Source: an uncultured Bdellovibrionales bacterium
GTDB taxonomy: Bacteria > Bdellovibrionota > Bdellovibrionia > Bdellovibrionales > UBA1609
Length of the DNA: 35,201 nt
Assembly: GCA_938001965.1 (NCBI GenBank)
Contig: CALLBC010000223.1
Coordinates: 1 to 35,201 of the forward strand
Reading direction: 5' to 3'
Position numbers and translations under genes: made by a program. The stretch's first letter is position 1. Each line of letters opens with the position of its first letter. The notes under the pieces are model-generated. The model was not told where the DNA came from. It saw only the letters and a program-made list of their open reading frames with translations, and made no database searches. Of the stretch, positions 5,775 through 27,265 are shown one piece after another.

Positions 5775-6977
5775 TTGACCAAAATAATATATGCAACAAT
5801 ATATATCTTTATCGGATACCTTATATTTGGTTTGTACATTAGCAACCAAGATATAAAAGTTATTGAACCCACAATTCAATCAAAGAATGCGTCTGATTTT
5901 TATGATTACAAAGGAGCCATTAATGTTCATTCTCATCTTAGTACTGGCACCGGCACACTACCAGAAATATTTAACTCGGCAGTAAAAGCCAAGTTAGATT
6001 TTATTGTTACAACTGACTTGAACACCTTCCCTTTACCCCTATCTAATAATAACTACTACAATAAAGTATTAGTTATGATAAATTCTGAATTTAGCTACTT
6101 GGATTCCAAACTTATATACATAAAAAATAAATCAAATGAACTGATAAATAATTTAGGACAAGCCAGTGCTGTATTATCTGAGCATCTTAGTGACCCACAA
6201 ACTAAAAGTGATTCATTATTAATTTGGGCTCACCCTACTAAAAAAGGTTCCAAATGGACTGGCGATATCCCTTTGGGACTTGATGGCCTTGAAATAATTA
6301 ATTTGAAATCTTTATGGCAAGACTCATGGTTAAATAAAAAAATTACTTTTATTTGGTCTTTCTTGATTTATCCATTTAACCCTGAGCTTGCATTCTTAAG
6401 ACTCTTCCAAAGAGCTGAAAAGGAAATTCAATTATGGGAAGAGCTCAATAAAGGTCGCCTTCGCATTGCCTTTGCTGGCACAGACGCTGAGTCTCGCTTT
6501 AACTTTTTTAAAACACCACTTAAGTTTCCGTCATATGAAACTCTATTTAAAATTGTTAGTAATCATATTTTAATCCGCTCTGAACTCACGGGCGACTACA
6601 GCAAAGATCAACCGAAAGTTTTTAATGCCTTAAAAGGAGGCCAGTTCTACTTAAGCCTTGATATGATTGGCGACCCAAAGGGGTTTTTGTTTTACTTACA
6701 AACTCCAAGAAAAAAAGAATATATGGGATCAACTATAAAATTAAAAGCTGGGAGTAAACTAAAAATTACTCTTCCAGAAAACATTAAGGTTCCCACAAAA
6801 ATTAAAATTTATAGAGACAATAAAGAGCAAACCAGTTTAGTTAATAAAGAGAACTCTTATGAAATAAAAAAGCCCGGTATTTACCGAGCTGTTGTTTTTA
6901 CAAAAATCAGTTTACCATTCCCCGAAGGGAGAAAGTGGTTCCCATGGATCTTTACCAATTCAATTAAAATCGATTAG
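5775..6977 (+). CDS. Membrane-anchored PHP-domain protein
   Basis: Encodes 400 residues from a TTG start. No in-frame ATG gives the N-terminal helix, which spans residues 4-22. The extracytoplasmic part begins GAINVHSHLSTGTGTLPEI (His52, His54) and continues AKLDFIVTTDLN, IWAHPTKKG and FAGTDAESRF. This is the order of metal-ligand motifs in PHP phosphoesterases, although the classic D/E before HxH is Asn-Val here. About 100 residues after the domain look like a beta-rich domain. PHP proteins are metal-dependent hydrolases of phosphate esters. An anchored extracytoplasmic one is less common and its substrate is unknown. Its stop overlaps the convergent small secreted gene by four bases. Confidence 0.75.
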   Translation: MTKIIYATIYIFIGYLIFGLYISNQDIKVIEPTIQSKNASDFYDYKGAINVHSHLSTGTGTLPEIFNSAVKAKLDFIVTTDLNTFPLPLSNNNYYNKVLVMINSEFSYLDSKLIYIKNKSNELINNLGQASAVLSEHLSDPQTKSDSLLIWAHPTKKGSKWTGDIPLGLDGLEIINLKSLWQDSWLNKKITFIWSFLIYPFNPELAFLRLFQRAEKEIQLWEELNKGRLRIAFAGTDAESRFNFFKTPLKFPSYETLFKIVSNHILIRSELTGDYSKDQPKVFNALKGGQFYLSLDMIGDPKGFLFYLQTPRKKEYMGSTIKLKAGSKLKITLPENIKVPTKIKIYRDNKEQTSLVNKENSYEIKKPGIYRAVVFTKISLPFPEGRKWFPWIFTNSIKID

Positions 6978-7255
6978 TTTCCACCGCTTCCTGTACCATT
7001 ACTGCCGCTACCATTAATACTAGGTGGCTCAATACCTTGTCCAACTCCACTCGTGTTCGTATGGCGTTCAGTATTACAATGTGGGCAGTTTGTCTGAATT
7101 ATTCCCGTCTCAATAGTCATATTACCCGCCTCAAGATCGCTACTGGCCACCATAGTTCCATCACCCAAGTTTATATCCTCTGTATTATAATTAGCCTTGG
7201 CATGTGCCACGGCTGAAAAACCTATAAATGTTAAAATAATAATAAATAGCTTCAT
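6974..7255 (-). CDS. Small secreted protein, candidate hit-locus (Bd0108-like) protein
   Basis: Encodes 93 residues. A clean Sec signal peptide ends at AVAHA (residue 19). The mature protein is 74 residues with a CPHC motif (Cys57, Cys60) and a Gly/Ser/Asn-rich tail. AGGAGA sits upstream of the ATG. It lies nine bases downstream of the RHS/YD gene, which follows the Tad operon. In Bdellovibrio bacteriovorus the host-interaction gene bd0108 encodes a small secreted protein beside bd0109 and the Tad genes, and mutations there allow prey-independent growth. The assignment is by position and type only. The tail is coded by an imperfect 15-base repeat that could slip. Confidence 0.7.
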   Translation of the reverse strand: MKLFIIILTFIGFSAVAHAKANYNTEDINLGDGTMVASSDLEAGNMTIETGIIQTNCPHCNTERHTNTSGVGQGIEPPSINGSGSNGTGSGGN

Positions 7256-7264
7256 ATCAATCTC

Positions 7265-8941
7265 CTAAATTCCTAATTCTGATGTTGCAGGTGAAATCAC
7301 CTCAAGTAAGTTACTAAAAATTCCAGCAACTTGGCTAGCCACTATTGGCCCCTCTTTACTATCAACTTTCTTGATCTTGCCACCTGGGTTATAGCTAACA
7401 CGAATTGACCCAATACCTGGCCTAGTTATTAGCTTTGGCTTACCCACTTTATTATCGTATTTAATATGCACAACCTTTTTAGCCTGGTCTATAATTGAAG
7501 CAATTCGACCATTTTTATCATACTTTAATTTTATTTTTTGTCCTGTTGAATTTATAGCCGAATATAAATTACACTTTGGGGCTTTGTATGAAAAGTCAGT
7601 ATTTACAGTTTTAAATAACTTTTTCGACTTCGGAGATCTTGATGCTGTTTTTCTATCAAACCTATAAAACTTACTAATTACTTTTGAAACTTTTAAACAT
7701 TTATTTTGATAAAAGAATGTTGAAGTTTTAAATGGCTCTGTTTTGGTTTTTATTTCTCCACTGTCATAATATGTAAACTTGGTTACGGCATTTCCAGCCG
7801 TTATATTTACAGCCTTACCATATTTAGGATGGTAAGTTGTTTCTGATTTTTTTCCATTTATTTCAGCGGTGGTCCTAGCTAAATACCTCGAACCATCAGC
7901 TCTTTTTTTATGTATAAATTCATATTTACTATTATTTGTTACCTTTGCCCCACACTTTTTCTGAACGGTTGATGAATAATGATTTAAAGGGTCTTTTCTA
8001 TTGCTGGTATAGTTATAAGTCTCGATACAATTGCTTCTATCTTTAAATGAAAGCACCCAATCTTTATTTTTGTCATATGTTAACTTTTTATCAGTTTTAT
8101 CGGGGTAAGTGACTCTTATTAAGTTATGTAAGTCATCATAAGTGTAGGTATAAACATTTTTCCAGGCATTTTTAGCATATATTAAGTCTTCACCTTTATA
8201 CTTAAAAACTAAATTCATATCTTTGGGCCCCTTAATATTTGAAACCTTATTTGATTTTTTATCTAGTTTAAAGCTCAAGCTTCGGCCATTGTTATCTGTC
8301 ACTTTACTAACAAAACCATCTTTATATGATATTTTTAAAAAGTTATTATTTTTATCATACATATAAATTAATTGACCTTTTATATTATATTTTTCATGGC
8401 TGCCATCGGCTAAAGTTCTTTTAAATTGATTATTTGATAATACAATGCTCTCTTTCTTTCTGCCAAAAGCAAGATATTTAATGCCGGATTTTACATCTCT
8501 TTTAATATTAAATTTCTTTGCGTACTTTTCTCTCTCCCAAACATCAATTTGAAGTCTATTTTTTATTGTTTTTAAATTTTGTTTTGTGTATTTTTTTGTT
8601 GCCTTAAGGTTATTCATAATTCTTGCAATTGTTTTTTTAATTGAAGAGCTCGATCCTGATGAAACATATTCAACTTCGTTACCACCACCACAAACTACAA
8701 TTTTAATATTTCCCTCTGGAGTTACTTTTAATTTACTTTCATAATCAGAACACCAGCCAAAACCAAATAATCCATTATGTAATGATCTACTATTATATGT
8801 TCTTTTTAACTGTAAATTATATCCTGTACCGTCCAAAGAGATATCAGTCCAAGTGTGAGAGTAGTTCGCATTTTTCATATCTACAAAGGCATATGAATTA
8901 AGTGAGAAGATGAGTAAACCTAAGAGCAATATATATTTCAT
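7265..8941 (-). CDS. Secreted RHS/YD-repeat protein, candidate Bd0109-like
   Basis: Encodes 558 residues with a signal peptide ending near SYAF. Residues about 20-95 (YNLQLKRTYNSRSLHNGLFG, then FGWCSDYE) match the DUF6531 entry domain of RHS proteins. Many short YD-type strands follow (YDKNNNFLKISYKDG, YTYDDLHNLIRVTYPD, LKYDKNGRIASI, VSYNPGGKI). It is far shorter than toxin-bearing RHS proteins and lacks the RHS core and a toxin C-terminus. The Bdellovibrio gene bd0109, next to bd0108 and the Tad cluster, was described as a cell-wall-associated (wapA-like) protein, which fits. It probably acts with the next gene in sensing prey contact or pilus state (inference). Confidence 0.8.
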   Translation of the reverse strand: MKYILLLGLLIFSLNSYAFVDMKNANYSHTWTDISLDGTGYNLQLKRTYNSRSLHNGLFGFGWCSDYESKLKVTPEGNIKIVVCGGGNEVEYVSSGSSSSIKKTIARIMNNLKATKKYTKQNLKTIKNRLQIDVWEREKYAKKFNIKRDVKSGIKYLAFGRKKESIVLSNNQFKRTLADGSHEKYNIKGQLIYMYDKNNNFLKISYKDGFVSKVTDNNGRSLSFKLDKKSNKVSNIKGPKDMNLVFKYKGEDLIYAKNAWKNVYTYTYDDLHNLIRVTYPDKTDKKLTYDKNKDWVLSFKDRSNCIETYNYTSNRKDPLNHYSSTVQKKCGAKVTNNSKYEFIHKKRADGSRYLARTTAEINGKKSETTYHPKYGKAVNITAGNAVTKFTYYDSGEIKTKTEPFKTSTFFYQNKCLKVSKVISKFYRFDRKTASRSPKSKKLFKTVNTDFSYKAPKCNLYSAINSTGQKIKLKYDKNGRIASIIDQAKKVVHIKYDNKVGKPKLITRPGIGSIRVSYNPGGKIKKVDSKEGPIVASQVAGIFSNLLEVISPATSELGI

Positions 8942-9015
8942 ATAACAACAGTCCTTGTCAGTTAATTTTGTCTATACATTATCTCACTAAGCAGAGTTAA
9001 AGGTCTATTCAGAAG

Positions 9016-9072
9016 GTTTTTGGTCACAATTATCTACACTTAAGGGAAGCCAAAAACATAAAGACCAAAAAC
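9016..9072. repeat. Inverted repeat in the gap between tadB and the RHS gene
   Basis: GTTTTTGGTC (9016-9025) and GACCAAAAAC (9063-9072) are perfect 10-bp inverted arms 37 bases apart. They lie in the 222-base gap upstream of the RHS/hit-like genes and could be an operator or a weak transcript structure. Confidence 0.45.
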
Positions 9073-9163
9073 TAGCTTATTAGGTTTAAATAGCCAAAGG
9101 TCTAGTACATATAACAACAGCGCAGCTTTATCATAATTTATCAATTACGACAGGTTCGCTTAC

Positions 9164-10042
9164 CTATACTTTTATTGTTATTATTTTTTTGATCATGACT
9201 CCACCAATAATTTGAAGACCAACAACCATAGTTAGAGCTATCCAGCCTATGAAAGTATTGAATAATGGAGCAATATAACCGGGATCAATAATGGCAAAGA
9301 CTCCAAGTAAAACAAAAGGCACGCAAGTCATAATGAACCCCTGCATAATTCCTTGTGCTGTCATTGCTTCAATCTTTTTTTCAATTTTTTGACGATCTCT
9401 GATAGTGGCCACAATTGTTTCAAAAGTTTCCCCTAAGTTACCACCAGTCTCTTTTAGGATATTAACAGATGTTACAAGCATCTGAACATCTTGACGCGGA
9501 ATCCTTTCTCCAAACTCAGAAAGCCCCTCTTCTAAACTCATACCTAACTGCATTTTATTTAATATTAATTTGAACTCTTCTGGCAATGGTCCATTCATGT
9601 TGGCAACTACGCGATCTAGAGTTTGGGCAACGCCTAAACCAGATCTAATACCATTTCCCATTATTGTTAAGCCATCCACCATTTGGGCAACCACTTGATT
9701 ACACCTTCTTTCCCATAAGTAATTCATTACAAGCTTGGGAAGTGACCAACCAAAGATAGTAACTCCCGAGCCAAATATAATGCCAGCCACTAAATTTGGC
9801 CAAAATAATAAAAATACTACAAAGCCTACACCAAAACTAATTAATAGCATTGCCAGAGTTATTTTCTTTTTGTCTGATGTGATTAGCATCTTTTCCATTA
9901 TCTCAATTACTTCTTTTCGCGAACCAAGACTTCGTTTATATAAAAAATTTAAAATTTTGTCAGACATTAAATAAGAAAATAAAAATACACAAATCCCAAA
10001 AACAGGAATTAAAAAATATGTATTGCTTAGTAAGCCACTCAC
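9164..10042 (-). CDS. tadB: Tad pilus inner-membrane platform protein TadB
   Basis: Encodes 292 residues from a GTG start. The stop of the upstream ATPase gene (TAG) shares a base with this start, and GGGAGG lies seven bases upstream, so translation is coupled. It has membrane segments near residues 8-27, 60-100 and 230-285 and a type II secretion F (T2SF) cytoplasmic domain (VDGLTIMGNGIRSGLGVAQTL, then LKETGGNLGETFETI). The glycine-rich ETGGN motif is typical of TadB/TadC. The family forms the platform that the CpaF ATPase drives. It ends the operon, and no second platform gene (TadC) follows. Confidence 0.9.
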   Translation of the reverse strand: MSGLLSNTYFLIPVFGICVFLFSYLMSDKILNFLYKRSLGSRKEVIEIMEKMLITSDKKKITLAMLLISFGVGFVVFLLFWPNLVAGIIFGSGVTIFGWSLPKLVMNYLWERRCNQVVAQMVDGLTIMGNGIRSGLGVAQTLDRVVANMNGPLPEEFKLILNKMQLGMSLEEGLSEFGERIPRQDVQMLVTSVNILKETGGNLGETFETIVATIRDRQKIEKKIEAMTAQGIMQGFIMTCVPFVLLGVFAIIDPGYIAPLFNTFIGWIALTMVVGLQIIGGVMIKKIITIKV

Positions 10043-12270
10043 TATTTACCTCCCACTTTTTTCTTTTTAACCATTACTCTTGGTCTAACTACTTTTGATT
10101 TCTTGATTGGAGTTGGGCCACCAGGTTTAGGTTTATTTGTTGACGATGATGTTGTGAATAAACTTCTTGGTATTTTAATTCCTCTTTTTTCAAACTCTTC
10201 AATAAAAGTTGGAATTAAACCCATTGCCTGAAATTGCCCAATTATTTTTCTATTCTTATCAAATCCTTCTTCTTTAAATCTAAATATTTCTTGTAAAGTA
10301 ATTGTGTCACCTTGAGTTCCAACCACTTCTGTAATGCTTTTTATTTTACGACTTCCATCACTAAGTCTTCCAATTTGAATAATTAAATGTACTGCGCCAC
10401 CAATTTGATCTCTAATTGATTTTACTGGTAAGTCCATGCCTGACATCAAACATAAGGTTTCAAGCCTAGCCACAGCTTCCCTTGGGTTATTTGCATGCAC
10501 TGTTGTCATAGATCCATCGTGACCTGTATTCATGGCCGATAGCATATCTAAGGCTGCACCATCACGACACTCCCCTACAATCACGCGATCAGGTCTCATA
10601 CGTAATGAATTCTTAATTAAGTCTCGAATAGTTACTTCACCGGTCCCTTCCATATTGGCTGGACGTGTTTCAAGGCGCACCACATGCTCTTGACTAAGTT
10701 GCAGCTCGGCCGCATCCTCAACAGTAATAATGCGCTCATTAGACTGAACAAAACTTGAGATCACATTTAATAAAGTTGTTTTACCTGATCCGGTACCACC
10801 AGAAATAATTATATTTAGATGTTGCTCCACACAAATTTTTAAAAAGTCTGCCATGGCTTGAGTCATCGACCCAAATTGATCAACTAAATGCCCTATAGTA
10901 ATGGTTTCCTCAGGGAATTTTCTAATTGTCAAAGAAGGGCCATCAATGGCTAGCGGCTCAATCACTGCATTTACACGACTACCATCAGCCAAACGAGCAT
11001 CCACGTACGGCATTTTCTCATCAATACGACGCCCCAGTGGAGTCACTATTCTTTCAATTACATTTCTTAATTGTAAATTTGAGGTAAACTTTACTTTTGA
11101 CAATACAAGTTTACCACCTCTTTCAGCATAGATCTGATTTGCACCATTCACCATTATTTCAGATACTTTTTTATCTTCTAATAACTCTTCTAAAGGGCCT
11201 AAACCTAAGGACTCATCTAAAACTTGTTTAATAATTTGTGATCGCTCTTCTCGGCTAATGCCTTTGGCAAGTCTATCTGTTAAGTTGGAAATTACTTGTT
11301 GGGTTTTGTTTCTTAACTCTTTCTCTTTAGACTTATCACCTTTCATGTTTGTTAAGTCTTTTTTTAGATCCATTTCCTTAATTAGTTGTGAATGAATCTG
11401 TAGCTTTAATAATGTCATTGCATCGGGACGACCTTTCCCATCGTCTACCACATCAAAATTATCTACTGAAGAACTGCTAGCCTCAGTAGTGCGCTTGGGA
11501 CGCGATACTGATTTCAGCTTTTGCAGCAGGCCTCCAGTTAAATTTCTTGCTACGTCATTATAAGCACCAGATATTGGCGCTTTTGGTTGTGATAAAACAA
11601 AAGGCACCGCTCTTTGTAAAGCGCCAAAGGCTGACACATCATCCTGTGGAATTGCACCAATAACATTTCTTTTTAAGTTGTTCATGATGGCCTGAGGACT
11701 TATCGCCGCTCTTGATGCCTTATTAACAACAATATGAATCATATTACTAGGTATTGTAAACCTAGATAACTGACTAATCATTTTTCTAGTTTGATTTAAA
11801 ACTAAAACCTCTGGGCTTGTTACGACCATAACAATGTTACAGTGATCTAATATTGAAAGTTGTAAATCATTAATCTCTGTTCCCAGATCAACAACAATGT
11901 ATTTATAATAATGACTAATAGAATAGAGCTGTTTTTTAAATACTTCTGCCGAGGCATCAAGGGTTTGATCAGGGCTTGTCACTGCTGGCAAAAATGATAA
12001 GCCAGAGTTATGTTTACTAATGAATTGCTTAATGTTTTCTTCAGTCATTGCTGCTGTTGAAGTGCATAGATCATTAATACCTTTTTGAGGGCGCAATCCT
12101 AAAATTACATTTTGATCACCACAGCTATTACTATCAAGATCTATAAGTAATGTTTGCTGACGCATTTCTCGCAACAGAGTTAAAGATAGGTTTGCTGCAA
12201 ATACACTTTTACCTACGCCGCCTTTACCGCCAACAATAGCAATCACATTACAATTCGGGTGAATAGACAA
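10042..12270 (-). CDS. CpaE-CpaF fusion: MinD-like ATPase joined to the Tad secretion ATPase
   Basis: Encodes 742 residues. I choose the TTG at 12270 because GGAGGAG lies six bases upstream. A TTG five codons earlier (12285) would put that site inside the gene. Residues 1-250 are a ParA/MinD-type ATPase with the deviant Walker [10 protein letters not shown] (14-22) and IDLDSN, corresponding to CpaE/TadZ without its receiver-like domain. From about residue 280 it is a CpaF/TadA-type secretion ATPase with Walker [10 protein letters not shown] (491-499), an acidic [11 protein letters not shown] segment, [16 protein letters not shown] and TVHANNP. The first half localises the machine and the second powers pilus assembly. 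The two are normally separate genes. A Lys-rich tail ends the protein. Confidence 0.92.
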
Positions 12271-12390
12271 ACTATACTCCTCCAAAGGTTTATCAAGTAC
12301 TTATCGACTAAATTGACCTATTTCTATACACGACGAATGTCTAAAGCTGGCGGGTATATTGAGTAATTGACTGGGCCTACAGACTAAAGC

Positions 12391-13050
12391 CTACCTTACT
12401 AGATACCTAATGTTTTTTGTAATGCCATTTCTATTTAAACCTAAATTTATGATAGAGCTTTTTTTAAACTGGTCTAACAATTTCATTACAGAACTTATAC
12501 TGTCCAGAGGAATATTATTAACATTCAATAACTGATCACCAACTTTTAAACCTAAGCCATTATCAAATACTCCATTTTTTTTAATGTATGTAATTTCAAA
12601 CCCTTTTATACTTCCACTATCATCTTTTATAATTTTTGTTCCTGCATCATTTAGAAACTCTGATAAATTACCAGTAACTTTATCGATTAATTTACGATTA
12701 ACATGATATTCTTTTTTTTCATTTTTATATATATCTTGCTTGTTTACAGATCTATCTTTTAAAAATTTACCTGTCGTAATATATTCAATTGAGTTATTTA
12801 TTTTATTTTTAATATAAACTTTTAACCTTGATATCTTAACAACTTCTGCCTGGTCAGAAATAGTTTCACTAGTGCGATAAGATCCACTGTTAATTGAAGC
12901 AATGCTTTTCTTGTTGTCAGAATATACAATAGTTCCAACCAACCTTAGGTTTAATTTACTTTTGGGTGATTTTAAATAAATTTTGTCATTAGCAAAAGCA
13001 CTAGAGGAAACAAGGGAGATTAAAAAGAACTTCCCAATTTTTTTTACCAT
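12391..13050 (-). CDS. GspC-like PDZ-domain protein in the Tad operon
   Basis: Encodes 219 residues. Residues 1-20 are a signal peptide ending at SSAFA. Residues 30-100 (LNLRLVGTIVYSDNKKSIAS and on) resemble the homology region of type II secretion GspC, which contacts the secretin. The C-terminal 75 residues (GFEITYIKKNGVFDNGLGLK, then VGDQLLNVNNIPL) form a GspC-type PDZ domain. GspC joins the inner-membrane platform to the outer-membrane secretin. Here the gene overlaps the CpaC secretin gene by one base. Unlike true GspC it seems to have a cleavable signal rather than a long membrane anchor. I do not know this as a usual Tad component. Confidence 0.75.
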   Translation of the reverse strand: MVKKIGKFFLISLVSSSAFANDKIYLKSPKSKLNLRLVGTIVYSDNKKSIASINSGSYRTSETISDQAEVVKISRLKVYIKNKINNSIEYITTGKFLKDRSVNKQDIYKNEKKEYHVNRKLIDKVTGNLSEFLNDAGTKIIKDDSGSIKGFEITYIKKNGVFDNGLGLKVGDQLLNVNNIPLDSISSVMKLLDQFKKSSIINLGLNRNGITKNIRYLVR

Positions 13051-14540
13051 TAGTTTTTAAGCCTAAATTTCCGTTTAATTTGCTCTGCACCAGCGCTGGC
13101 AGAACTTTTTATAATAGGAGTTATAAAAACAACAAACTGACTTTGTTTTCTTTGGAAGTCTTTTGAGGCCATTAATGAAATTATTGGATTGTTACCCGGA
13201 GGAGCCTTATTATAACCCGTTGAGGTTGTGCTACTAATTAGTCCACCAATAGCAGCACTTTGACCACTACGAACAACCAATGTTGTATTAATCTCTTTAT
13301 CATTCACTAGTGGCGCGCCGCCAGCATAGCCCGTTAAAGCCTTCACACTAAATTTAGTTTGTAATTTAATACTATCAGAACGCTCTCCTAAGACTTCAGG
13401 AGTAATTGCGGTGTTAATTCCAGTGTCGGCAAATTCAGTTTTAGGCCCTTCTTTCGTAGCTGTAATATACGGGATTTTTGATGTTGATTTTAAAGTTCCA
13501 AGCTTTCCATCTTGTACAATAATACTGGCACTTTGCAGCTCCCTAGCATGGCCATGAGACTTTGCCCAATTTAACTTCGGCAATAAATTTGTTATTACAC
13601 CTGTGATCGTTGAAGCAATACTACTTGGCCCTCGGCTACCGGTAGAAAAACCAATCTTAGACTGATCCCCTGACCCTAAACCTGGTGTCCACTGAAAGTT
13701 AAAACCTTTTTGGTAATCTTTGTTTAATTCAACAAAGTGAACCACAATTTGTATAATTTTTTTGGGTGCAGCAGCTGGCGCGGCCTTCACATTCACTAAA
13801 TTTATAATTTTTGCTTTTTCTGCCTTTTTAGTTCTTTTTGCAGAGTCTGACTCTTTATTTACTTCATCTGGCAAATAGGCTTGAGCTAAAATATAAGCTC
13901 TGTCTTTTTCGTCTTTACTATTGGCAAATCCTTCAAGTAAAAATACACCATTCACTGCTTTAACACTTATTTCTGGATTATTAATCGCCCTTTCCATGTA
14001 CCTAGCAATTTTAACTTGGGCCATAGGACTAAGCCTTACTAAAGAGGACGCTTCATTACCGTACTGATTAACAACAGAGAAAATTCTAGATATATCACTT
14101 GGCAAAATAACTTCACCATCAACCACTACACGGCCGTTTAATATTTTAACCTTAATCCCTTCAATATCTCTTAATAGACCTTGAATTTCTTTAGCTGTTT
14201 TTGCAACATTTGTTTTTTTAACATCTAATCTGAATTCATATAAAATATTACCTGTTCTTTTATCACTAATAAATAGTGAACAATCATTTACCCTTGTTGG
14301 GTTTATGCGTAAAATTTTCTCTTTTGGGTTAAATTGTAACTTAGCACACTTTTTATAGGTCCCTGTTCGACCAAACTTAACTGGTGCAGCGGGAATTTTA
14401 ATATCTTGATATAAACCAACAAACAACGAAACATGCTTAACTGGATGTCTTCTTTTTTTGGCGTGCAGATCCGCTGTATTTACAATCAATACCAACGCAC
14501 AAAAAATTAAACATATATTATTAAATATATTCATATTCAT
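13050..14540 (-). CDS. cpaC: Tad pilus outer-membrane secretin CpaC (RcpA)
   Basis: Encodes 496 residues with a signal peptide ending near LHAKK. A pilus/secretin N-domain is at about 25-110, a BON-like segment at about 115-220 and the secretin domain at about 265-480. The latter ends in the typical VVRSGQSAAIGGLI and FVVFITPIIKS motifs. The family forms the outer-membrane ring through which Flp pili emerge. An AAGGGA site precedes the ATG. It sits seven bases after the CpaB gene and overlaps the GspC-like gene by one base, so these are co-translated. Confidence 0.92.
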   Translation of the reverse strand: MNMNIFNNICLIFCALVLIVNTADLHAKKRRHPVKHVSLFVGLYQDIKIPAAPVKFGRTGTYKKCAKLQFNPKEKILRINPTRVNDCSLFISDKRTGNILYEFRLDVKKTNVAKTAKEIQGLLRDIEGIKVKILNGRVVVDGEVILPSDISRIFSVVNQYGNEASSLVRLSPMAQVKIARYMERAINNPEISVKAVNGVFLLEGFANSKDEKDRAYILAQAYLPDEVNKESDSAKRTKKAEKAKIINLVNVKAAPAAAPKKIIQIVVHFVELNKDYQKGFNFQWTPGLGSGDQSKIGFSTGSRGPSSIASTITGVITNLLPKLNWAKSHGHARELQSASIIVQDGKLGTLKSTSKIPYITATKEGPKTEFADTGINTAITPEVLGERSDSIKLQTKFSVKALTGYAGGAPLVNDKEINTTLVVRSGQSAAIGGLISSTTSTGYNKAPPGNNPIISLMASKDFQRKQSQFVVFITPIIKSSASAGAEQIKRKFRLKN

Positions 14541-14547
14541 ATATCCC

Positions 14548-15438
14548 TTAATCTATATCCTCGAATGGGCCAGATTTCTTTTTTCTTCGTTTTTTAGGTT
14601 TAGGCTTAATAATCGTAGCTGCTGGTATTCTGGGTGCAACATATTGTATTTTTGGTTTCTTAGGCCTTACTTTTTTAATGATATTGGTAATTGAGGTTGG
14701 ACCATTCTTTTTACGTATTTCCTGATCACTTGGATGCCTCAGGGTGTAGTAAATAGATCCCGGCGATGCATCTAGAATATAAACCAACTGCTCTGCTTCT
14801 TGGGGGCTTACTTCCACTAAGATTGTGGAGTAGTCTGTGTCTTCTCTTAAGTTATTTACAATATAACCCTTTCCATCTTTTTCAAATAGTCTTGGCAGCT
14901 CATTAATAATTTTCATTCCTGTGGCTAACACAGTAATATTTTGTAAAATCGTTTTTACTTTTTTAGATTTTTGTGGCCCAGAGCCAACAGTCACTGCTAC
15001 CAATACATCAATACGGTCTCCCGGTTTTAGTAGCTTTGCCACACCACGAGTGGAGTCTATGGGCAGTGCCATACCACGTTTTGTAGGTGCCACTTGCGAG
15101 GATGGGTTAATCCCAGGACCAGGTTGCCTAATTTTACTTTCTAAAACTTGCTCGCCAACATTAATGGGAGCTAAGGCCACTTGGCCCACTGCAATTTCTG
15201 GGTCCGTTAATGAGCCGGGCTCAGAAAAGTCTACTGGACGTTCTTGCACTTGCAACATCGTCTCATCAATAGTTTGCATTTCTTTGATTTCGGTTTTAGC
15301 CACTACCACCCTCTTTTTTGCCCCAAACTTCTTAGTTAATTCAGCACTTTTTTCTTGCGTATAACTATACAATAAGAATACAGCAAAAATGGCTGCTGCT
15401 ACAGAAATCCATAGTGTTCGTGTCTCATTCTGGTTCAT
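14548..15438 (-). CDS. cpaB: Tad pilus assembly protein CpaB (RcpC)
   Basis: Encodes 296 residues. The start at 15438 is chosen because AAGGTGG lies five bases upstream. A GTG three codons earlier is part of that site. A membrane helix is at about 8-25. A SAF domain (VVVAKTEIKEMQTIDETML to GQVLA-like VGEQVLESKI) is at about 45-105. The RcpC domain follows (MALPIDSTRGVAKLLKPGDR, then IDVLVAV and ILQNITVLATG). The family is a periplasmic partner of the CpaC secretin and may bind peptidoglycan. The tail is very Lys/Arg/Pro-rich (KPKPKKRRKKK). Confidence 0.9.
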   Translation of the reverse strand: MNQNETRTLWISVAAAIFAVFLLYSYTQEKSAELTKKFGAKKRVVVAKTEIKEMQTIDETMLQVQERPVDFSEPGSLTDPEIAVGQVALAPINVGEQVLESKIRQPGPGINPSSQVAPTKRGMALPIDSTRGVAKLLKPGDRIDVLVAVTVGSGPQKSKKVKTILQNITVLATGMKIINELPRLFEKDGKGYIVNNLREDTDYSTILVEVSPQEAEQLVYILDASPGSIYYTLRHPSDQEIRKKNGPTSITNIIKKVRPKKPKIQYVAPRIPAATIIKPKPKKRRKKKSGPFEDID

Positions 15439-15504
15439 AATTGCCACCTTTTTTTACGAAATTGCTTTAATTTCGATTTCATTTTAGGACGGTTCCGCTT
15501 AACC

Positions 15505-16065
15505 TTACTCACAATTCACATCCAAACAGTATCCATAACCAATTTGTATCCATATTGGATTCACTCCATCTTTGGGCCCAACCACACTACTGGGGCCTCT
15601 ATCAGCATTAGGGTCAGTAATTGCACTATGCATTGCACTTGTGGGGTCTTCTAATTCACCACGATCTCTCGTTTGAAAATTTGAAAAAGAAATATTCATT
15701 CTTGGTGCAACAAAGTCTTGAAAAGTTCCATCATTGATTGCATGAAACCTAAAGGATCGATCCTCATAAGTTAAACCAGGCACTGACTCTCGAAATTGTT
15801 TTAAATTACTTCTATTTCTGAATGTTTCAAAGGCGTAAGTTCTTGCTGCAATAGAATTTAAAATACTGGCGTGAATAGTTCCCCAAAATCCCATTGCGTA
15901 GGTCATTAAAACCATGAAAACAACTAATAAGGGTATGGTCTCAAGCACTGCCATACCCTTTTCATTATTTAAAACTTTATTTTTTTTAAAAATAGGTAAA
16001 CTATTAAACTTTTCGTTTAAAAATTTGAGAGTTTGAATAAGGGTTTTAGCTTTAAAAATAAACAT
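15505..16065 (-). CDS. TadE-like minor pseudopilin
   Basis: Encodes 186 residues. A long 38-residue leader ends in NNEKG, followed by MAVLETIPLLVVFMVL: the class III prepilin pattern Gly then Glu at +5 and a hydrophobic helix. TadE/TadF proteins are minor pseudopilins processed by the prepilin peptidase and needed for Flp pilus assembly. The globular part has two cysteines at the extreme C-terminus (YCLDVNCE), possibly a disulfide. It starts three bases after the previous gene. GAGG lies only one base from the ATG, so the exact start is uncertain. Confidence 0.8.
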   Translation of the reverse strand: MFIFKAKTLIQTLKFLNEKFNSLPIFKKNKVLNNEKGMAVLETIPLLVVFMVLMTYAMGFWGTIHASILNSIAARTYAFETFRNRSNLKQFRESVPGLTYEDRSFRFHAINDGTFQDFVAPRMNISFSNFQTRDRGELEDPTSAMHSAITDPNADRGPSSVVGPKDGVNPIWIQIGYGYCLDVNCE

Positions 16066-16068
16066 ACC

Positions 16069-16674
16069 TCAACATCCATTATCGGTAATATTTTTATAAT
16101 TCTGTAAATTATTTCGTAAATCTGGATGGTTATACCCTCGCTCATTAATCAACCACTCTAGACGTTTGCCAGAAAAGATCTGGCACTCCTCAGTACTAGG
16201 CTCTCGTCCTAAAAAGGTATGAATGTTTGTACTAAAGCCCTGACCATCATTTTTTGTGCTCGTAGATCCGTAAAATGGAATTTTAATATCTAGCATTTTT
16301 GCATTCATACCCACGGACACACCATAAAATGTATTTCTGCTTGGGTTTGTGGGCTGATAAATATTTGTTAAGTCTCCATACTCTGGTTCACTAAGTACAA
16401 ACCACTTGGTTTTATCAAACATGGACCTTACTCTTGGGTCAGTGTATAGTTGACTAAATTTTTCTTTGGCATTTTCAATTGATTTAGCCTCATTCACATT
16501 GGCCACAGAATACACTCTTGCTGAGGAGAAGGTCATATATTGAACAACATCAACCATAGTTAAGGTCATACTCAACGAAAATAAAATAACCATAAACCCC
16601 ATAGCCAAAACAATGGCAAATAAATAGTCAACAGTGAGAATACCATCTGAATTTTTTAAGATATTTTTTTTCAT
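16069..16674 (-). CDS. TadE/TadG-like pseudopilin with Asp at +5
   Basis: Encodes 201 residues. The N-terminus KNSDG followed by ILTVDYLFAIVLAMGFMVIL matches the class III prepilin layout, but the residue at +5 is Asp where Glu is usual. The rest is a periplasmic globular domain with two distant cysteines (ECQIF and a final Cys). It overlaps the upstream gene by ATGA and is followed after two bases by the TadE-like gene, so the three pseudopilins are probably made together. Confidence 0.72.
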   Translation of the reverse strand: MKKNILKNSDGILTVDYLFAIVLAMGFMVILFSLSMTLTMVDVVQYMTFSSARVYSVANVNEAKSIENAKEKFSQLYTDPRVRSMFDKTKWFVLSEPEYGDLTNIYQPTNPSRNTFYGVSVGMNAKMLDIKIPFYGSTSTKNDGQGFSTNIHTFLGREPSTEECQIFSGKRLEWLINERGYNHPDLRNNLQNYKNITDNGC

Positions 16675-16922
16675 TTATCTGTACTCACATGACGGTCATT
16701 CTGATTGGGGTGTTCGGCCTTTCCAGCCTCAGCCTCCTTCCATACGCCGTTTTGAATCATTCCATCTAAACGCTCCCAGGGTCCAGAAACTAACTGAGTA
16801 AGTAACTGATTATCTTTAAATTGCTTAGATACAGTGAGTGCTATAGTTACAAAAACTACCAATAAGAGAACACCTTCAACCATTGTTTGGCCCTTGTTAT
16901 TCTTGATAAATTTATTTTTCAT
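16671..16922 (-). CDS. Small Tad pseudopilin
   Basis: Encodes 83 residues. The leader MKNKFIKNNKG is followed by QTMVEGVLLLVVFVTIALTV, the prepilin pattern with Glu at +5. A short hydrophilic tail of about 50 residues follows. By size it lies between Flp pilins and TadE proteins. It lies two bases downstream of the prepilin peptidase gene and overlaps the next pseudopilin gene by four bases. Confidence 0.78.
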   Translation of the reverse strand: MKNKFIKNNKGQTMVEGVLLLVVFVTIALTVSKQFKDNQLLTQLVSGPWERLDGMIQNGVWKEAEAGKAEHPNQNDRHVSTDK

Positions 16923-16924
16923 AA

Positions 16925-17506
16925 CTAAATAAAACTAAACCCCTGTAATGATAAGTTGGTTAACCACCCTAAAAGCAATGCCACTGTATAGGGTATTGAA
17001 TGTAAGTTTTCTGCCTCTGGTTTTTTAAAAGACAAAATATTTAATGTATTTTTGATAAAGTCTTTGGATTGCCTTTTAACAATAATCATGACTAAACCTA
17101 AAATTAGCCCCCAAAATAATGAATACACAAAGGTGCTAATAAGTGCTGATAAGGTGATATTTAAGCCAAAAACCACCAGTAGCTTTAAGTCTCCACCACC
17201 AAGCATTTTAGTTATAAAAAGTGGGACCATAAAACAAAAAGCAAGTAGGGCTGATAAAAGGCCATACTTTAAACTTTCAAAACCTTGTAAAAATAGGAAA
17301 TGATTTGCTATGGATGCTAGTAAGAAAATTATAATGAGTTTGTTGTAGACTTTTCTACGATACAAGTCACTGACTACACTGACTAGTAGAATTAGAGTTG
17401 GTACAATATAAATGGTTTCAAATAATCTTGCGATAACTACTCCGTCTTTTAGAGTAGTCCTATTGCCAAGCCTTATTATCACTATCGCGTATAAATTGGT
17501 GCCCAA
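16925..17506 (-). CDS. cpaA: Prepilin peptidase CpaA (TadV), A24 family
   Basis: Encodes up to 193 residues. Aspartate-protease prepilin peptidases use two membrane-proximal Asp residues: here Asp47 in VSDLYRRKVYN and Asp106 in the GxGD motif LGGGDLKLL. Five to six membrane helices span the protein. It would cut the leaders of the Flp pilin and pseudopilins in this operon. The start is uncertain. TTG at 17506 overlaps the upstream gene by 47 bases. A GTG eight codons in is another candidate. GACGGAG lies further down, ahead of a frame with no standard start codon, and the first helix starts only near residue 31. Confidence 0.88.
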   Translation of the reverse strand: MGTNLYAIVIIRLGNRTTLKDGVVIARLFETIYIVPTLILLVSVVSDLYRRKVYNKLIIIFLLASIANHFLFLQGFESLKYGLLSALLAFCFMVPLFITKMLGGGDLKLLVVFGLNITLSALISTFVYSLFWGLILGLVMIIVKRQSKDFIKNTLNILSFKKPEAENLHSIPYTVALLLGWLTNLSLQGFSFI

Positions 17507-17645
17507 TAGAAATACTCCTTTCTATTTTAGCACCTAAACGCGGTCCTGCCTCCTTAAATGTATTAATTGGACCATTGTCTCCAAAATACACCCCAAGGAT
17601 AATAATAACGGATAAAAAAAGTATTAAAACGGCTTCGGTGGTCAT
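17460..17645 (-). CDS. Short single-helix pilin-like protein of the Tad operon
   Basis: Encodes 61 residues, beginning MTTEAVLILFLSVIIILGVY. This resembles the mature start of a class III pilin (Glu near position 4 then a hydrophobic helix) but has no positively charged leader or cleavage glycine. A 40-residue hydrophilic tail follows. It overlaps flp by ATGA and the prepilin peptidase frame by 47 bases. It could be an assembly factor that inserts without processing. I recognise no family. Confidence 0.65.
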   Translation of the reverse strand: MTTEAVLILFLSVIIILGVYFGDNGPINTFKEAGPRLGAKIERSISIGHQFIRDSDNKAWQ

Positions 17646-17830
17646 TCGCCGCTAAAAGAACCTATTTGTGATTCAATATCACCCATTTTATCTTTAATTG
17701 CAGTGATTATTGGATCCTTAAAAGCAGCAACCGCGGCAATAACCACAACGATTAGAAGAATATACTCTGTAGCGCCCTGTCCACTTTCATCATTCCAGAT
17801 ATCTTTAAGTAATTGTTTCGCTTTTTTCAT
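17642..17830 (-). CDS. flp: Flp/Fap pilin, major Tad pilus subunit
   Basis: Encodes 62 residues. The leader ends SG (Gly17), followed by QGATEYILLIVVVIAAVAAF, with the diagnostic Glu-Tyr at +5/+6 of Flp pilins and a single hydrophobic helix. The length is typical for Flp. AGGAGA precedes the ATG. It is the first gene of an eleven-gene minus-strand operon ending at tadB. The 276-base AT-rich region upstream separates it from a divergent Flp-like gene and should hold the promoter. Confidence 0.93.
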   Translation of the reverse strand: MKKAKQLLKDIWNDESGQGATEYILLIVVVIAAVAAFKDPIITAIKDKMGDIESQIGSFSGE

Positions 17831-18106: not shown

Positions 18107-18967
18107 ATGAACTTTTTTAATAAAATTAAACAATCAAAGATAATTGCTAATGAACAAGGGCAAGGTGCTCTTGAGTACATTCTTTTACTCACCGTTGTTG
18201 TCGCCATAATTGTTGGTTTAATTTTTCAATTTAATAAAAACTTTGGTGAGTACGCAGAAAATTACTTTGGCTCCTATTTAAAATGTTTAATTCAAAATGG
18301 TGAACTTCCAAGCCTTGGCTCAGAAGACGCTGGCGTAACAGTCAATACTTGCAGTCAGGCCTTTAAGCCCTTCACAATGGCAGAAGGACGACCACCTAAT
18401 GACTCTAATAAAAACAATCAAGGTGATAGCAATAAGACCTCAGATGGCAAAGGTAAAAAAACTAGCCCCAATCGATTTAGCTCTAATGGTGGGTCCCGTG
18501 GTGGGCCTTCAGGTAGAGGGGGCCGTGCTGGAGGGTCTGGCAACGTTTCAGGGTCATCATTTGCAGCCAAAGGAACAAATAATAATGTTAAAAAAGATAA
18601 AATATTTGTTGGCGGAGGTGGGTTAGGCACAATTAAAAAGTCAAAAAGTGGAAAAAATGATGATTCGGCAAATGGCCGTAACAGTAAAGGAAAACGAGTT
18701 GGCACCGTTAATGTTTATGACCCAGATAAGGATAAAAAGGGCAGCGGTAAAATTAAAGTGCGTAAAGACAAGCAAAATGATGAGCAGTCAAAAAAGTCTA
18801 AATCCTTTCGTCAGGCGGCCTCCATTAAAAAGAATGTGAGTCCAGAGGTTGAAGTTGAATTATCCTTTGGGGACTACATAAGATACTTAATCATTGCAGC
18901 TATATTAATCGTTTTATTATTCGTTGTGGGTGGGCAAATTTTTCAAGCCAGCAAAGGCTCAGAATAA
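18107..18967 (+). CDS. Flp-like protein with long basic Gly-rich tail and C-terminal membrane helix
   Basis: Encodes 286 residues. The N-terminus ends the leader at Gly18 and continues QGALEYILLLTVVVAIIVG, a canonical Flp class III motif with Glu-Tyr at +5/+6. Unlike pilins it carries a long tail. A short domain with two cysteines (Cys near 59 and 83) comes first, then about 150 residues very rich in Gly, Ser, Lys and Asn, and a second hydrophobic helix at 260-279. It is divergent from flp. It may be a membrane-retained pilus-associated protein. No close family is known to me. There is no clear Shine-Dalgarno before the ATG. Confidence 0.8.
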   Translation: MNFFNKIKQSKIIANEQGQGALEYILLLTVVVAIIVGLIFQFNKNFGEYAENYFGSYLKCLIQNGELPSLGSEDAGVTVNTCSQAFKPFTMAEGRPPNDSNKNNQGDSNKTSDGKGKKTSPNRFSSNGGSRGGPSGRGGRAGGSGNVSGSSFAAKGTNNNVKKDKIFVGGGGLGTIKKSKSGKNDDSANGRNSKGKRVGTVNVYDPDKDKKGSGKIKVRKDKQNDEQSKKSKSFRQAASIKKNVSPEVEVELSFGDYIRYLIIAAILIVLLFVVGGQIFQASKGSE

Positions 18968-24238: not shown

Positions 24239-24335
24239 TTAAAACTCCAGGGCGAATTCAGTTATTTCGCACGGAGTTCAGCCCGAAGGGATGCTGTTTG
24301 AGTACGAGATAACTGAATTCGCCCTGGAGTTTTAA
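24239..24335. repeat. 97-bp palindromic element with perfect 27-bp inverted arms
   Basis: Bases 24239-24265 are the exact reverse complement of 24309-24335. The pairing continues inward with mismatches. The 43-base centre contains a second hairpin in which CAGC pairs with GCTG and CC with GG around a GAAG loop. There is no open frame and no T-run on the immediate 3' side. It resembles a MITE-like or structured repeat rather than a simple terminator, and it could also end ferredoxin transcription. Confidence 0.85.
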
Positions 24336-24475: not shown

Positions 24476-24491
24476 TGGCACACTTATAGCT
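24476..24491 (+). promoter_or_regulatory. Sigma54 (-24/-12) promoter
   Basis: TGGCACACTTATAGCT matches the RpoN consensus TGGCACGNNNNTTGCW. The TGGCAC is complete, the GG and GC pairs are ten bases apart as required, and only G7 and T13 differ. It lies 45 bases upstream of the ATG at 24537, predicting a transcript start near 24502 and a leader containing GGGGAGA. Confidence 0.65.
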
Positions 24492-24536
24492 ATAGTAATT
24501 GGTATATAGATTAACAAATTACTGGGGAGAATATCT

Positions 24537-24758
24537 ATGAAACAACTTATACTAATCTTATCATTAACTTTAATGGCTGGAGTTGCGAACGCTGGAACTG
24601 GAATGAGCAATAATGACTGCCCATATGCAGACAAGTCTAACGCTTCTTCTTTATTTTCTAAAACAGCGGCATACACTCCACATAGTACTCTTAAAGAGCT
24701 TTCAAAGAAAAATGCAGCCCAAGGCAAAAGACGTGGCAACGCAAAAGCTGCTAACTAA
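24537..24758 (+). CDS. Small secreted protein under a sigma54-type promoter
   Basis: Encodes 73 residues. A Sec signal peptide ends at GVANA (about residue 19). The 54-residue mature protein has one cysteine (NDCPYAD) and a basic tail (KKNAAQGKRRGNAKAAN). GGGGAGA lies a few bases upstream of the ATG and a strong terminator follows 22 bases after the stop, so this is a single-gene unit. No family is recognised. The basic, lone-cysteine mature peptide could bind nucleic acid or membranes, which is inference. Confidence 0.8.
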   Translation: MKQLILILSLTLMAGVANAGTGMSNNDCPYADKSNASSLFSKTAAYTPHSTLKELSKKNAAQGKRRGNAKAAN

Positions 24759-24780
24759 TATATTAATTTAAACTTTAAAC

Positions 24781-24812
24781 AAAAAAAGCTCACTATTAGG
24801 TGAGCTTTTTTT
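24781..24812 (+). terminator. Rho-independent terminator after the small secreted protein
   Basis: GCTCAC pairs with GTGAGC around TATTAG. The stem is flanked by seven A on the left (24781-24787) and seven T on the right (24806-24812). The A-tract lets it work on both strands. Confidence 0.92.
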
Positions 24813-24835
24813 ATACCAAAAGGTACTCTGCCTAG

Positions 24836-24907
24836 TTCAATTTGCATCACTACAACAACAGCCACTGTTTAAATTAGTACTTTAAATACAAAAATAAATT
24901 CCTTCAC
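24836..24907 (-). pseudogene. Decayed 5' fragment of a duplicate of the gene at 25880-26164
   Basis: These 72 bases align without gaps to 26093-26164, the start of the intact gene, with 63 identical positions by hand count. Read on the minus strand the fragment gives KEFIFVFKVLI, a TAA stop, then TVAVVVVMQIE. The ATG has become GTG. Just beyond it CCAAAAGGTAC (24816-24826) repeats one arm of the palindrome found past the 3' end of the intact gene. The simplest reading is a duplicated gene with its middle deleted. Confidence 0.85.
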
Positions 24908-25879: not shown

Positions 25880-26164
25880 TTAATTTTCGAAGTCTATTTC
25901 TGAAACTTCATTTAGTTCTTGAGCTTTCTCTGTCACTTCTTTCAAAGGGATTTTAGTATCTATTTTTTTAACCTTACTAAATTGTTTATTAAACTTATCC
26001 TTAGCTATATTACTTTGCTTGCGTATCCAAGGGATTGTCTCTGAGCTACCAAACAACAAGCTGGCTCTTTGCTCTAAGCTTTGGCCCTTAAATTCAATTT
26101 GCATCACTACAACTACAGCCACAGTTAAAACTAATACTTTAAATACAAAGAAAAATTCTTTCAT
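25880..26164 (-). CDS. Single-pass membrane protein of unknown function
   Basis: Encodes 94 residues. A membrane helix or uncleaved signal is at 6-22 (VFKVLVLTVAVVVVMQI). The soluble part is rich in Lys, Glu, Ser and Gln and is probably helical (KFNKQFSKVKKIDTKIPLKE). It starts ten bases after the end of the CheY-like gene on the same strand and may share its transcript. A decayed copy of its first 24 codons lies 1.2 kb away. Confidence 0.7.
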   Translation of the reverse strand: MKEFFFVFKVLVLTVAVVVVMQIEFKGQSLEQRASLLFGSSETIPWIRKQSNIAKDKFNKQFSKVKKIDTKIPLKEVTEKAQELNEVSEIDFEN

Positions 26165-26174
26165 ACATTGCCTT

Positions 26175-26546
26175 TTAAAATTCTTTACCTAAAACCTTTT
26201 CTAAACTTTTAATTAAATCATTACGGTTAAATGGTTTAATAATATAATCACAACATCCAGCACCTAGAGCTTTTTCCTTCATAAATTCATCATCTAGGGT
26301 AGAAACAGCTATTATTTTTGTCTCCGGCAGCTCTGCCAATATTTCTTTTGTGGCATCTACACCATTTTTATTTGGCATCACCATATCCATAAATATGGCA
26401 TCTGGCTTTAGCTCTAAAGCTTTTTTAACCGCATCTTCGCCATCTATGGCCTCGCCCACAACTTCAATTTGGCGGCTCTCAATAAGAGACTTAGTCACTT
26501 GAATAATAAATGGCGCGTCATCAGCGATTAACAGTTTTATCGACAT
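26175..26546 (-). CDS. CheY-like single-domain response regulator
   Basis: Encodes 123 residues from the ATG at 26546. A longer frame upstream lacks family support. It has the acidic pair Asp9/Asp10, the phospho-acceptor Asp54 (FMDMVMPNKNG), Ser82 and Lys104 (IIKPF), so it is a complete receiver. There is no output domain, so it acts by protein contact, for example in chemotaxis or motility. A -10 TATACT ends seven bases before the ATG, suggesting a leaderless message. No kinase is nearby. Confidence 0.93.
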   Translation of the reverse strand: MSIKLLIADDAPFIIQVTKSLIESRQIEVVGEAIDGEDAVKKALELKPDAIFMDMVMPNKNGVDATKEILAELPETKIIAVSTLDDEFMKEKALGAGCCDYIIKPFNRNDLIKSLEKVLGKEF

Positions 26547-26553
26547 AGCTAAT

Positions 26554-26582
26554 AGTATAGGGTCAAATTGTAATTTTCCCAA
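26554..26582 (-). promoter_or_regulatory. Promoter of the CheY-like gene, probably leaderless
   Basis: On the minus strand TTGGGA (26582-26577), a 17-base spacer, then TATACT (26559-26554). The ATG begins eight bases after the -10, where transcription would start. No Shine-Dalgarno is present. Confidence 0.5.
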
Positions 26583-26602
26583 ATAAAATTGGTAATATAA
26601 GT

Positions 26603-27265
26603 ATGAGCGCATCACCATTTCAAGCAATTATAAGTTGTTTAAGTAGCAAGTCAGCACTTATTGGCTGCTTTGCAAGCTTTAGTGGCTTTGGCGCCTATGC
26701 TGTCATTGGCGGAGTTCTTTTTGCTTGTGGCCTTGGCTTACCAATTCCTGAAGACATAACTATCATTGCCTCTGGTATTTTAGTGGCTCTAGGTAAAATA
26801 TCCATGGTTGGGGCTTTTATCGTCTGTATGGCTGGTGTGCTTGTGGGCGATTCATTTATGTTTTTTTTAGGGCGCCGACTTGGCGATAACGCCTTTAAAC
26901 TGCCAGTTATTCGCAAATTTATGACTGAAAAAAGAATTAAACTGGCTAAAGAAAGCGTAGTTAACAACTCCCAATTTATTTGTTTTATTGCAAGGTTTTT
27001 ACCTGGGTTAAGATCACCTACTTTTTTAACTGCCGGAGCCATGGGCGTTAAGCCAATGACTTTTTTATTATTAGATGGGTTTGCGGCTTTAATTAGTGTG
27101 CCTGTTTGGATATATGTTGGTTGGTGGCTTGGTGATAATTGGGATGAAAACTTAGCCATTGTTAAAAAGTTACATGTTTACCTTATCTTTATTGTACTAG
27201 GCTTAGGTATTATTTATTTCATGACCAAGAAGTATTTTATTAAGAAAACTATTAAAAGCGAATAA
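26603..27265 (+). CDS. DedA-family membrane protein
   Basis: Encodes 220 residues with about five hydrophobic segments. The family motifs are present: GLPIPEDITIIASGIL near residues 45-60, GDSFMFFLGRRLGD near 83-96, and FIARFLPGLRSPTFLTAGAMG near 128-148, which carries the conserved Arg and Pro-Gly. DedA proteins are linked to undecaprenyl-phosphate or lipid flipping and to membrane homeostasis. It is divergent from the CheY-like gene with 56 bases between the starts. Confidence 0.92.
   Translation: MSASPFQAIISCLSSKSALIGCFASFSGFGAYAVIGGVLFACGLGLPIPEDITIIASGILVALGKISMVGAFIVCMAGVLVGDSFMFFLGRRLGDNAFKLPVIRKFMTEKRIKLAKESVVNNSQFICFIARFLPGLRSPTFLTAGAMGVKPMTFLLLDGFAALISVPVWIYVGWWLGDNWDENLAIVKKLHVYLIFIVLGLGIIYFMTKKYFIKKTIKSE

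Follow-up and report, generated by a model that had tools for sequence, protein, structure and literature searches.

The 35,201-nucleotide stretch of DNA analysed here (the window), from an uncultured Bdellovibrionales bacterium, contains a locus that is best explained, with a probability of roughly 0.7, as a divergent form of the host-interaction (hit) locus of Bdellovibrio bacteriovorus, in which a Tad pilus operon is joined to the genes of a secreted RHS shell protein and a small secreted protein (S1), a second small secreted protein (S2) is encoded separately under a sigma-54-type promoter, and the occupancy of the shell would gate the pilus. A sequence-only reading of this DNA had already proposed the same locus in a divergent relative; the orthology to Bd0109 and the synteny bear this out, but identity to Bd0108 at the sequence level could not be found. 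The third component, S2, is newly found, as is the overlap of a published "sRNA" of strain HD100 with a conserved gene for a small secreted protein that has its own sigma-54 promoter.

In B. bacteriovorus, Bd0108 and Bd0109 interact in vitro, and the loss of Bd0108, a disordered protein, leaves few pili and permits prey-independent growth (PMC3818213, PMC4267844). NMR showed C56 and C59 of Bd0108 to be oxidised, and its encapsulation has been proposed (PMC4267844). bd0108 has been called unique to Bdellovibrio (PMC3818213), and some strains have been described as lacking it (PMC5941755). The general synteny has been partly reported before (PMC10469934, PMC4267844). The earlier claim that bd0108 and bd0109 control the growth switch in Bdellovibrio agrees with this literature for bd0108; bd0109 proved not to be deletable in B. 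bacteriovorus (PMC3818213).

Organization of the Tad operon

Eleven minus-strand ORFs, from Flp (17642-17830) through TadB (9164-10042), appear in the ORF list of the window, followed after a 222-base gap by a 558-aa ORF and, nine bases further, by a 93-aa ORF; all the coordinates that the sequence-only reading had given for them are correct. The first gene of the operon encodes Flp, the major pilin of 62 aa, which was identified in the ORF list and whose syntenic position is matched in most of the loci that extend far enough upstream. Next in order are a 61-aa membrane protein (17460-17645), the prepilin peptidase CpaA (16925-17506; Peptidase_A24), a small pilin-like protein of 83 aa (16671-16922) and two minor pilin-like proteins at the TadE/F positions (16069-16674 and 15505-16065), the last two having no Pfam match and being assigned, like the 61-aa and 83-aa proteins, from the ORF list and synteny. 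RcpC/CpaB (14548-15447) contains RcpC and SAF domains and exceeds the TIGR03177 cut-off with 131 bits, and the RcpA secretin (13050-14540) combines Secretin and BON domains. Next come a GspC-like protein with a PDZ domain (12391-13050), recognised by Pfam and below the curated cut-offs, and a TadZ-TadA fusion (10042-12285), in which Pfam and curated models place a ParA/MinD-type domain and the T2SSE domain of the TadA ATPase; the same fusion is present in 143 of 149 loci. TadB, identified by its T2SSF domain, closes the series. TadA, TadB, RcpA, RcpC, CpaA and Flp thus lie within one operon, which identifies it as a Tad pilus locus. A search for TadC showed a single T2SSF gene in the window's Tad operon; in HD100, tadC is located elsewhere, as bd0470 (PMC3818213).

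At the other end, the locus meets a convergent gene on the plus strand (5775-6977), found in the ORF list and coding for a 400-aa protein with a weak CehA/McbA-type metallohydrolase match in the domain search. This gene overlaps the S1 stop by four bases and fills the site that S2 occupies in most relatives.

The shell protein

The 558-aa protein (7265-8941, minus strand) has two Pfam matches, one to DUF6531 (43.4 bits) and one to RHS_repeat (36 bits). It aligns with HD100 Bd0109 over its full length (residues 1-556) at 48% identity and 503 bits, a comparison that supports its proposed identity as the Bd0109 orthologue. A counterpart was found in 59/59 relatives, in 137 of 144 genomes of the class and likewise in 137/144 genomes drawn from the phylum. 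The shell gene follows TadB directly and on the same strand in 150 of the 154 phylum loci with enough upstream sequence, an arrangement far beyond chance, although here as in all our locus counts the loci are related and the numbers overstate their independence. Of the four exceptions, three are additional copies in a single genus that lie away from the Tad genes. The adjacency to TadB, together with an S1 gene at 110/113 loci of the order, supports the suggestion that the pilus operon and the secreted pair form one conserved module.

Four cysteines (64, 84, 305 and 330) are invariant in all 55 shell sequences compared. The AF2 model (pLDDT 87.7) comprises an N-terminal domain, a helical insertion, a β-spiral and a C-terminal helix (532-556), and a Foldseek search with it retrieved T6SS Rhs cores (E 1e-22), teneurins and ABC-toxin shells. 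The predicted structure shares the β-spiral, YD-repeat shell of the Rhs cocoons found in T6SS Rhs effectors and ABC-toxin BC components, but the window protein has about half their length (558 versus about 1000 aa) and is predicted to be Sec-secreted. Neither an autoprotease nor a toxin region was detected by Pfam, curated models or AF2, and the C-terminus is a conserved helix, features that set the protein apart from T6SS Rhs effectors and ABC toxins. For the shell as for S1 and S2, secretion is predicted from the hydrophobic N-terminus alone, by hydropathy.

Close similarity to the shell beyond the phylum was limited to two alphaproteobacterial records (L258 and L265), where the homologue lies behind a gene of about 905 aa, and no Tad genes or small neighbour were found within 3 kb around it. 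Plasmids gave weak and partial shell matches only.

S1, the positional counterpart of Bd0108

S1 (6974-7255, minus strand) is a 93-aa secreted protein, predicted to be disordered, whose CPHC cysteines are residues 57 and 60. It appears to be the last gene of the operon, because it ends four bases into the convergent gene and is followed by a terminator-like hairpin (6890-6871), 84 bases past its stop and inside that gene. BLASTP against Bd0108 found no sequence similarity (11 bits), a profile built from the Bdellovibrio copies failed as well, and the cut-off of NF053838 (hit_Bd0108), a model that matches 24/144 genomes and two of 69 genera, was reached neither by the 93-aa protein nor anywhere in its own genome. 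The earlier equation of this protein with Bd0108 is therefore not supported by sequence; it stands by position and architecture, S1 lying directly after the Bd0109 gene and having a hydrophobic signal peptide, a length within 70-125 aa, a mid-protein cysteine pair and predicted disorder. We accordingly regard S1 as the positional counterpart of Bd0108.

The same arrangement recurs widely. Of the 113 loci in the order that could be evaluated, 110 have a small ORF with a hydrophobic start immediately after the shell gene, as do 38/42 outside the order; some loci were assigned by eye where the automatic rule missed them. Within the order this ORF starts at a median of 14 bases past the shell stop. 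No S1 was found at three loci of one family (f5) despite the presence of the shell gene. Of the 110 S1 proteins of the order, 103 carry two or more cysteines beyond residue 20, and the nearest spacing is six or less in 91/103 (70/79 after dereplication, against 22.1, sd 3.5, in shuffles). The CPHC pair had been singled out as worth testing across homologues, and what proved to be conserved is a cysteine pair of variable spacing: CPHC itself was rejected as a conserved motif, with spacings running from CC to CX5C and congeners lacking CPHC. An [TSL]EA motif is enriched in S1 (30/85 versus 8.5 in shuffles). Charge-hydropathy predicts disorder in 74 of 85 S1 proteins, AF2 gives the window S1 no structure beyond the signal helix, and the S1 sequences match no Pfam family.

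Mature S1 proteins have an identity of 0.94 where the shells are at least 95% identical and of 0.36 at a shell identity of 75-80%, compared with a shuffled baseline of 0.32, and S1 similarity sinks to the shuffled background once shell identity is below about 75-80%. Sequence searches for Bd0108 fail because S1 decays to this baseline and the window shell is just 48% identical. A Bdellovibrio S1 profile nevertheless finds some members outside the genus, and even congeners share no recognisable S1 sequence. Close Bdellovibrio pairs with measurable dS give a dN/dS of about 0.03-0.08, and the S1 sequence is thus constrained yet drifting, with purifying selection between close relatives.

S2, a third component of the locus

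At most loci a second small secreted ORF, S2, is found 350-950 bases past the shell gene. Genome G061 is treated as HD100, since its bd0109 and bd0108 lie exactly at the published site of the HD100 hit locus: the reported sRNA (96436-96822) adjoins Bd0108 (96873-97178), and the primers from the literature map where they should. In HD100, S2 lies at 96483-96683 on the minus strand and encodes 66 aa with a single cysteine, C26. The "small non-coding RNA" described at 96436-96822, with its core at 96455-96716, rises in bd0108 mutants (PMC3818213), and the published RT-PCR primers map to 96555-96652, within the S2 ORF. The strand of that RNA is probably that of S2, and the RefSeq gene BD_RS00505, placed between bd0108 and bd0103 (PMC5941755), probably corresponds to the S2 ORF. 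A terminator-like hairpin (96835-96808) lies between bd0108 and S2. The differences at codon positions 1/2/3 number 2/1/15 between HD100 and G048 and 0/0/15 between L046 and L093, a pattern of substitution between close relatives that is that of a protein, and a ribosome-binding site precedes S2 in nearly all Bdellovibrionaceae copies.

Alignment of the gap between bd0108 and S2 across Bdellovibrio revealed an invariant TGGCA[CT]-N5-TGCA block with GG-N10-GC spacing. A sigma-54 box matching at least 10 of 12 consensus positions was found before 61 of 82 S2 genes, in 0.6% of shuffles and upstream of S1 in 2/82 cases; the organism's own genome encodes the sigma-54 DNA-binding domain, as do 55/59 genomes. 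A joint rule, requiring a sigma-54 box and a small secreted ORF within 120 bases, picked out an S2 after 86 of the 148 shell genes; the same rule gave 3 cases when applied to the opposite strand and 1.5 when applied to shuffles. The ORF rule alone gave a weak antisense control (36/126), and the box is needed for a clean separation. Exactly one cysteine is present in 84 of the 86 S2 proteins so defined, which the rule did not require. Bdellovibrionaceae follow the joint rule at 40/48 loci and a further family, probably the Bacteriovorax group (f18), at 16/17; within the window's own family (f1), S2 is beside S1 in about one third. A TN motif after the cysteine, shared by S1 and S2, might point to a common origin of the two, but it is enriched just weakly in S1.

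Short secretory gene arrays near Bd0103/Bd0109 homologues, small secreted genes of the same kind, have already been seen in activated-sludge Bdellovibrionales, including the family UBA1609 (PMC10469934), to which a relative in the window's family (f1) very probably belongs. In the available text of that report, weak Bd0108/Bd0103 similarity is all that is noted; a rule for cysteines, a sigma-54 promoter, a test for coding and a connection with the sRNA do not appear there.

Relocation of S2 in the window

No S2 is found beside S1 in the window, where the convergent gene leaves no room. A promoter scan of the whole window yielded a single box at 11/12 consensus positions, the only one of that quality (TGGCACACTTATAGCT, 24476-24491, plus strand, GG-N10-GC); a looser sigma-54 pattern also matches at 5035, inside a gene. 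The box led to S2 before any look at the ORF itself, which encodes a predicted secreted protein of 73 aa with one cysteine (CPYADKSNASSLFSKTAA; 24537-24758, plus strand), detached from S1 by about 17 kb. A profile trained solely on Bdellovibrionaceae S2 ranks this protein first among 129 ORFs (E 3e-5), with S1 second (E 0.0018), partly via its signal peptide. A terminator-like hairpin read from the sequence, AAAAAAAGCTCAC-TATTAG-GTGAGCTTTTTTT (24781-24812, plus strand), follows the gene. Convergent to S2, as in HD100, is a 94-aa protein (25880-26164, minus strand) equivalent to the 86-aa HD100 ORF beside S2, probably Bd0103, and next to it a CheY-like response regulator, the probable Bd0102 equivalent (26175-26627, minus strand). 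The region 24476-24758 thus combines a small secreted protein with one cysteine, a sigma-54 box and Bd0103/CheY-type neighbours, and the congener L272 has the same S2 block, sigma-54 box included. In the window's genus, S2 is relocated by about 17 kb together with its CheY/Bd0103-like neighbours. The component at 24537-24758 was absent from the sequence-only reading.

Compared with the B. bacteriovorus hit locus, where bd0108-bd0109 end the Tad operon bd0109-bd0119, the window has the same gene order and strand logic, a 48% identical Bd0109, a small disordered protein after it with a comparable cysteine pair (C57/C60 here, C56/C59 in Bd0108) and the convergent S2-Bd0103-CheY block. It differs in that its S1 has no detectable Bd0108 sequence and in the distance of about 17 kb between S2 and S1.

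A possible mechanism and its alternatives

In the mechanism that we propose, the shell, S1 and S2 would all be exported by Sec, and the half Rhs shell would hold or present S1, as Bd0109 binds Bd0108 in vitro. The S1 cysteines may form a local disulfide, like C56-C59 of Bd0108. Occupancy of the shell would gate the extension and retraction of the co-expressed pilus machinery; S1 would be supplied with the pilus operon and S2, as a second client or competitor, through a separate sigma-54 input, their balance setting pilus behaviour. The rise of the HD100 S2 transcript when bd0108 is broken suggests that S2 may signal a lack of S1 or make up for it. The checkpoint may, in Bdellovibrio, be coupled to the choice of growing exclusively within prey, and by analogy a growth-switch role is conceivable in the window's organism.

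Some observations count against this explanation. The published bd0108 phenotypes concern type IVa pili, though the locus is linked to Tad genes. In addition, S1 has no sequence similarity to Bd0108, S1 is missing from three f5 loci, and S2 lies beside S1 in just about a third of the window's family.

The main rival is a delivery role, in which the half Rhs cocoon carries S1 (and S2) as cargo, the Tad machinery delivers it to prey or competitors, and S1 is an effector and not a regulator. The Rhs fold seen by Foldseek, the encapsulation proposed earlier for Bd0108 (PMC4267844) and the very fast divergence of S1 would suit such a device; we consider it unlikely, however, for a shell that has no autoprotease or toxin region and ends in a conserved helix, that has no immunity gene and whose supposed cargo is disordered, without a Pfam family and under purifying selection (dN/dS about 0.03-0.08 in close Bdellovibrio pairs). 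It also seems improbable that S1 is not one family but the outcome of repeated recruitment of unrelated small secreted ORFs, in which case the window protein would be no evolutionary counterpart of Bd0108. The smooth decay of S1 similarity with distance, the unchanging position, the cysteine pair, the EA motif, the disorder and the detection of members beyond the genus by the Bdellovibrio profile argue for a single family, against the lack of pairwise similarity between S1 and Bd0108, the restriction of the Bd0108 model to 2/69 genera and the congeners without recognisable shared S1 sequence, all of which repeated recruitment would explain.

The transcript downstream of bd0108 could, finally, be a regulatory or antisense RNA as published, its ORF being incidental. 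RNA-seq and RT-PCR label it non-coding in the available text of PMC3818213, and two RT-PCR primers leave the strand unsettled. A purely RNA role is nonetheless very improbable in view of the third-position substitutions in S2, the ribosome-binding sites in nearly all Bdellovibrionaceae copies, the one conserved cysteine and predicted signal peptide across the phylum, the sigma-54 box on the strand of the ORF and the RefSeq gene BD_RS00505 annotated between bd0108 and bd0103 (PMC5941755).

Returning to the shell-gated pilus, its wider form is a proposition on which we are evenly divided: the hit locus would be a phylum-wide, three-part periplasmic Tad checkpoint made of an RHS shell, a fast-evolving disordered client with two cysteines and a sigma-54-driven client with one, the HD100 "sRNA" would be the S2 messenger, and the switch may run on the balance of two clients and not on an RNA.

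By these data, almost all genomes of the order and most of the phylum have a counterpart of Bd0108, which went unseen because its sequence decays too fast. It follows that the module is not predator-specific: it is a core accessory of the Tad system, which Bdellovibrio has linked to its decision on growth. The findings bear on an old question, namely how mutations in bd0108 set free prey-independent growth, for which the overlap of the sRNA with S2 offers a concrete gene, a promoter and residues (C56/C59 of Bd0108 and C26 of S2).

Shell gene copies and the Tad operon

The shell gene, encoding the Bd0109-type secreted RHS protein (7265-8941, minus strand, downstream of TadB in the window), also occurs away from Tad loci. 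Second, divergent copies that do not lie beside Tad genes were found in genus g33 (L086, L134 and L135), and each of them is followed by a small secreted ORF with one or two cysteines. Locus L086 (genome G042) fits B. exovorus as that species has been described (PMC4267844). Beyond the phylum, shell-gene relatives are present in Roseovarius aestuarii (L265) and in an alphaproteobacterial MAG (L258), in both cases immediately preceded by a gene of ~905 aa, and no Tad genes surround them within the 3 kb of DNA examined. The presence of these two relatives looks like lateral transfer.

In the Tad operon itself, the TadZ-like and TadA domains are joined in a single fused protein (10042-12285), an arrangement found in 143 of the 149 loci, nearly phylum-wide. 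Divergent from the flp operon, a 286-aa protein (18107-18967, plus strand) resembles a pilin at its N-terminus, has an extended low-complexity central region and carries a membrane segment at the C-terminal end.

Small secreted ORFs

S2, the small secreted one-cysteine ORF behind a sigma-54-type box (ORF 24537-24758, plus strand; box 24476-24491), has its promoter closely preceded on the 5' side by a 97-base imperfect inverted repeat (24239-24335; 77% self-complementary), of which one partial second copy exists in the genome (G000:C7:48433-48486). A short minus-strand ORF at 24755-24865, starting MAVVVVMQIEL, resembles the N-terminal start of the Bd0103-like protein (25880-26164, minus strand) and may be the leftover of a duplicated copy adjoining S2. 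Some Bdellovibrio genomes (L096, L099, L100) carry a third small secreted one-cysteine ORF downstream of S2, at about +860 to +930; the 174-bp 'insertion' reported in strain SKB1291214 (PMC5941755) may be a copy of this kind. Elsewhere in the window, two tandem gene pairs (29032-29520 with 29553-30050, and 32933-33355 with 33497-33925) encode small proteins that are related, contain several cysteines and are either secreted or membrane-located.

S1, the small secreted cysteine-pair ORF after the shell gene (6974-7255, minus strand) and positional counterpart of Bd0108, has no recognisable equivalent at three loci of family f5 that retain the shell gene (L079, L084 and L087), the sole such cases among the order's evaluable loci. 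In the Bdellovibrio locus L102 (genome G062), the bd0108 gene directly 3' of the shell gene is disrupted by a frameshift upstream of its CPEC. Prey-independent isolates typically carry bd0108 mutations of this kind. If G062 is strain W, the frameshift would explain why Bd0108 of that strain was reported to lack the CXXC motif and the C-terminus (PMC4267844).
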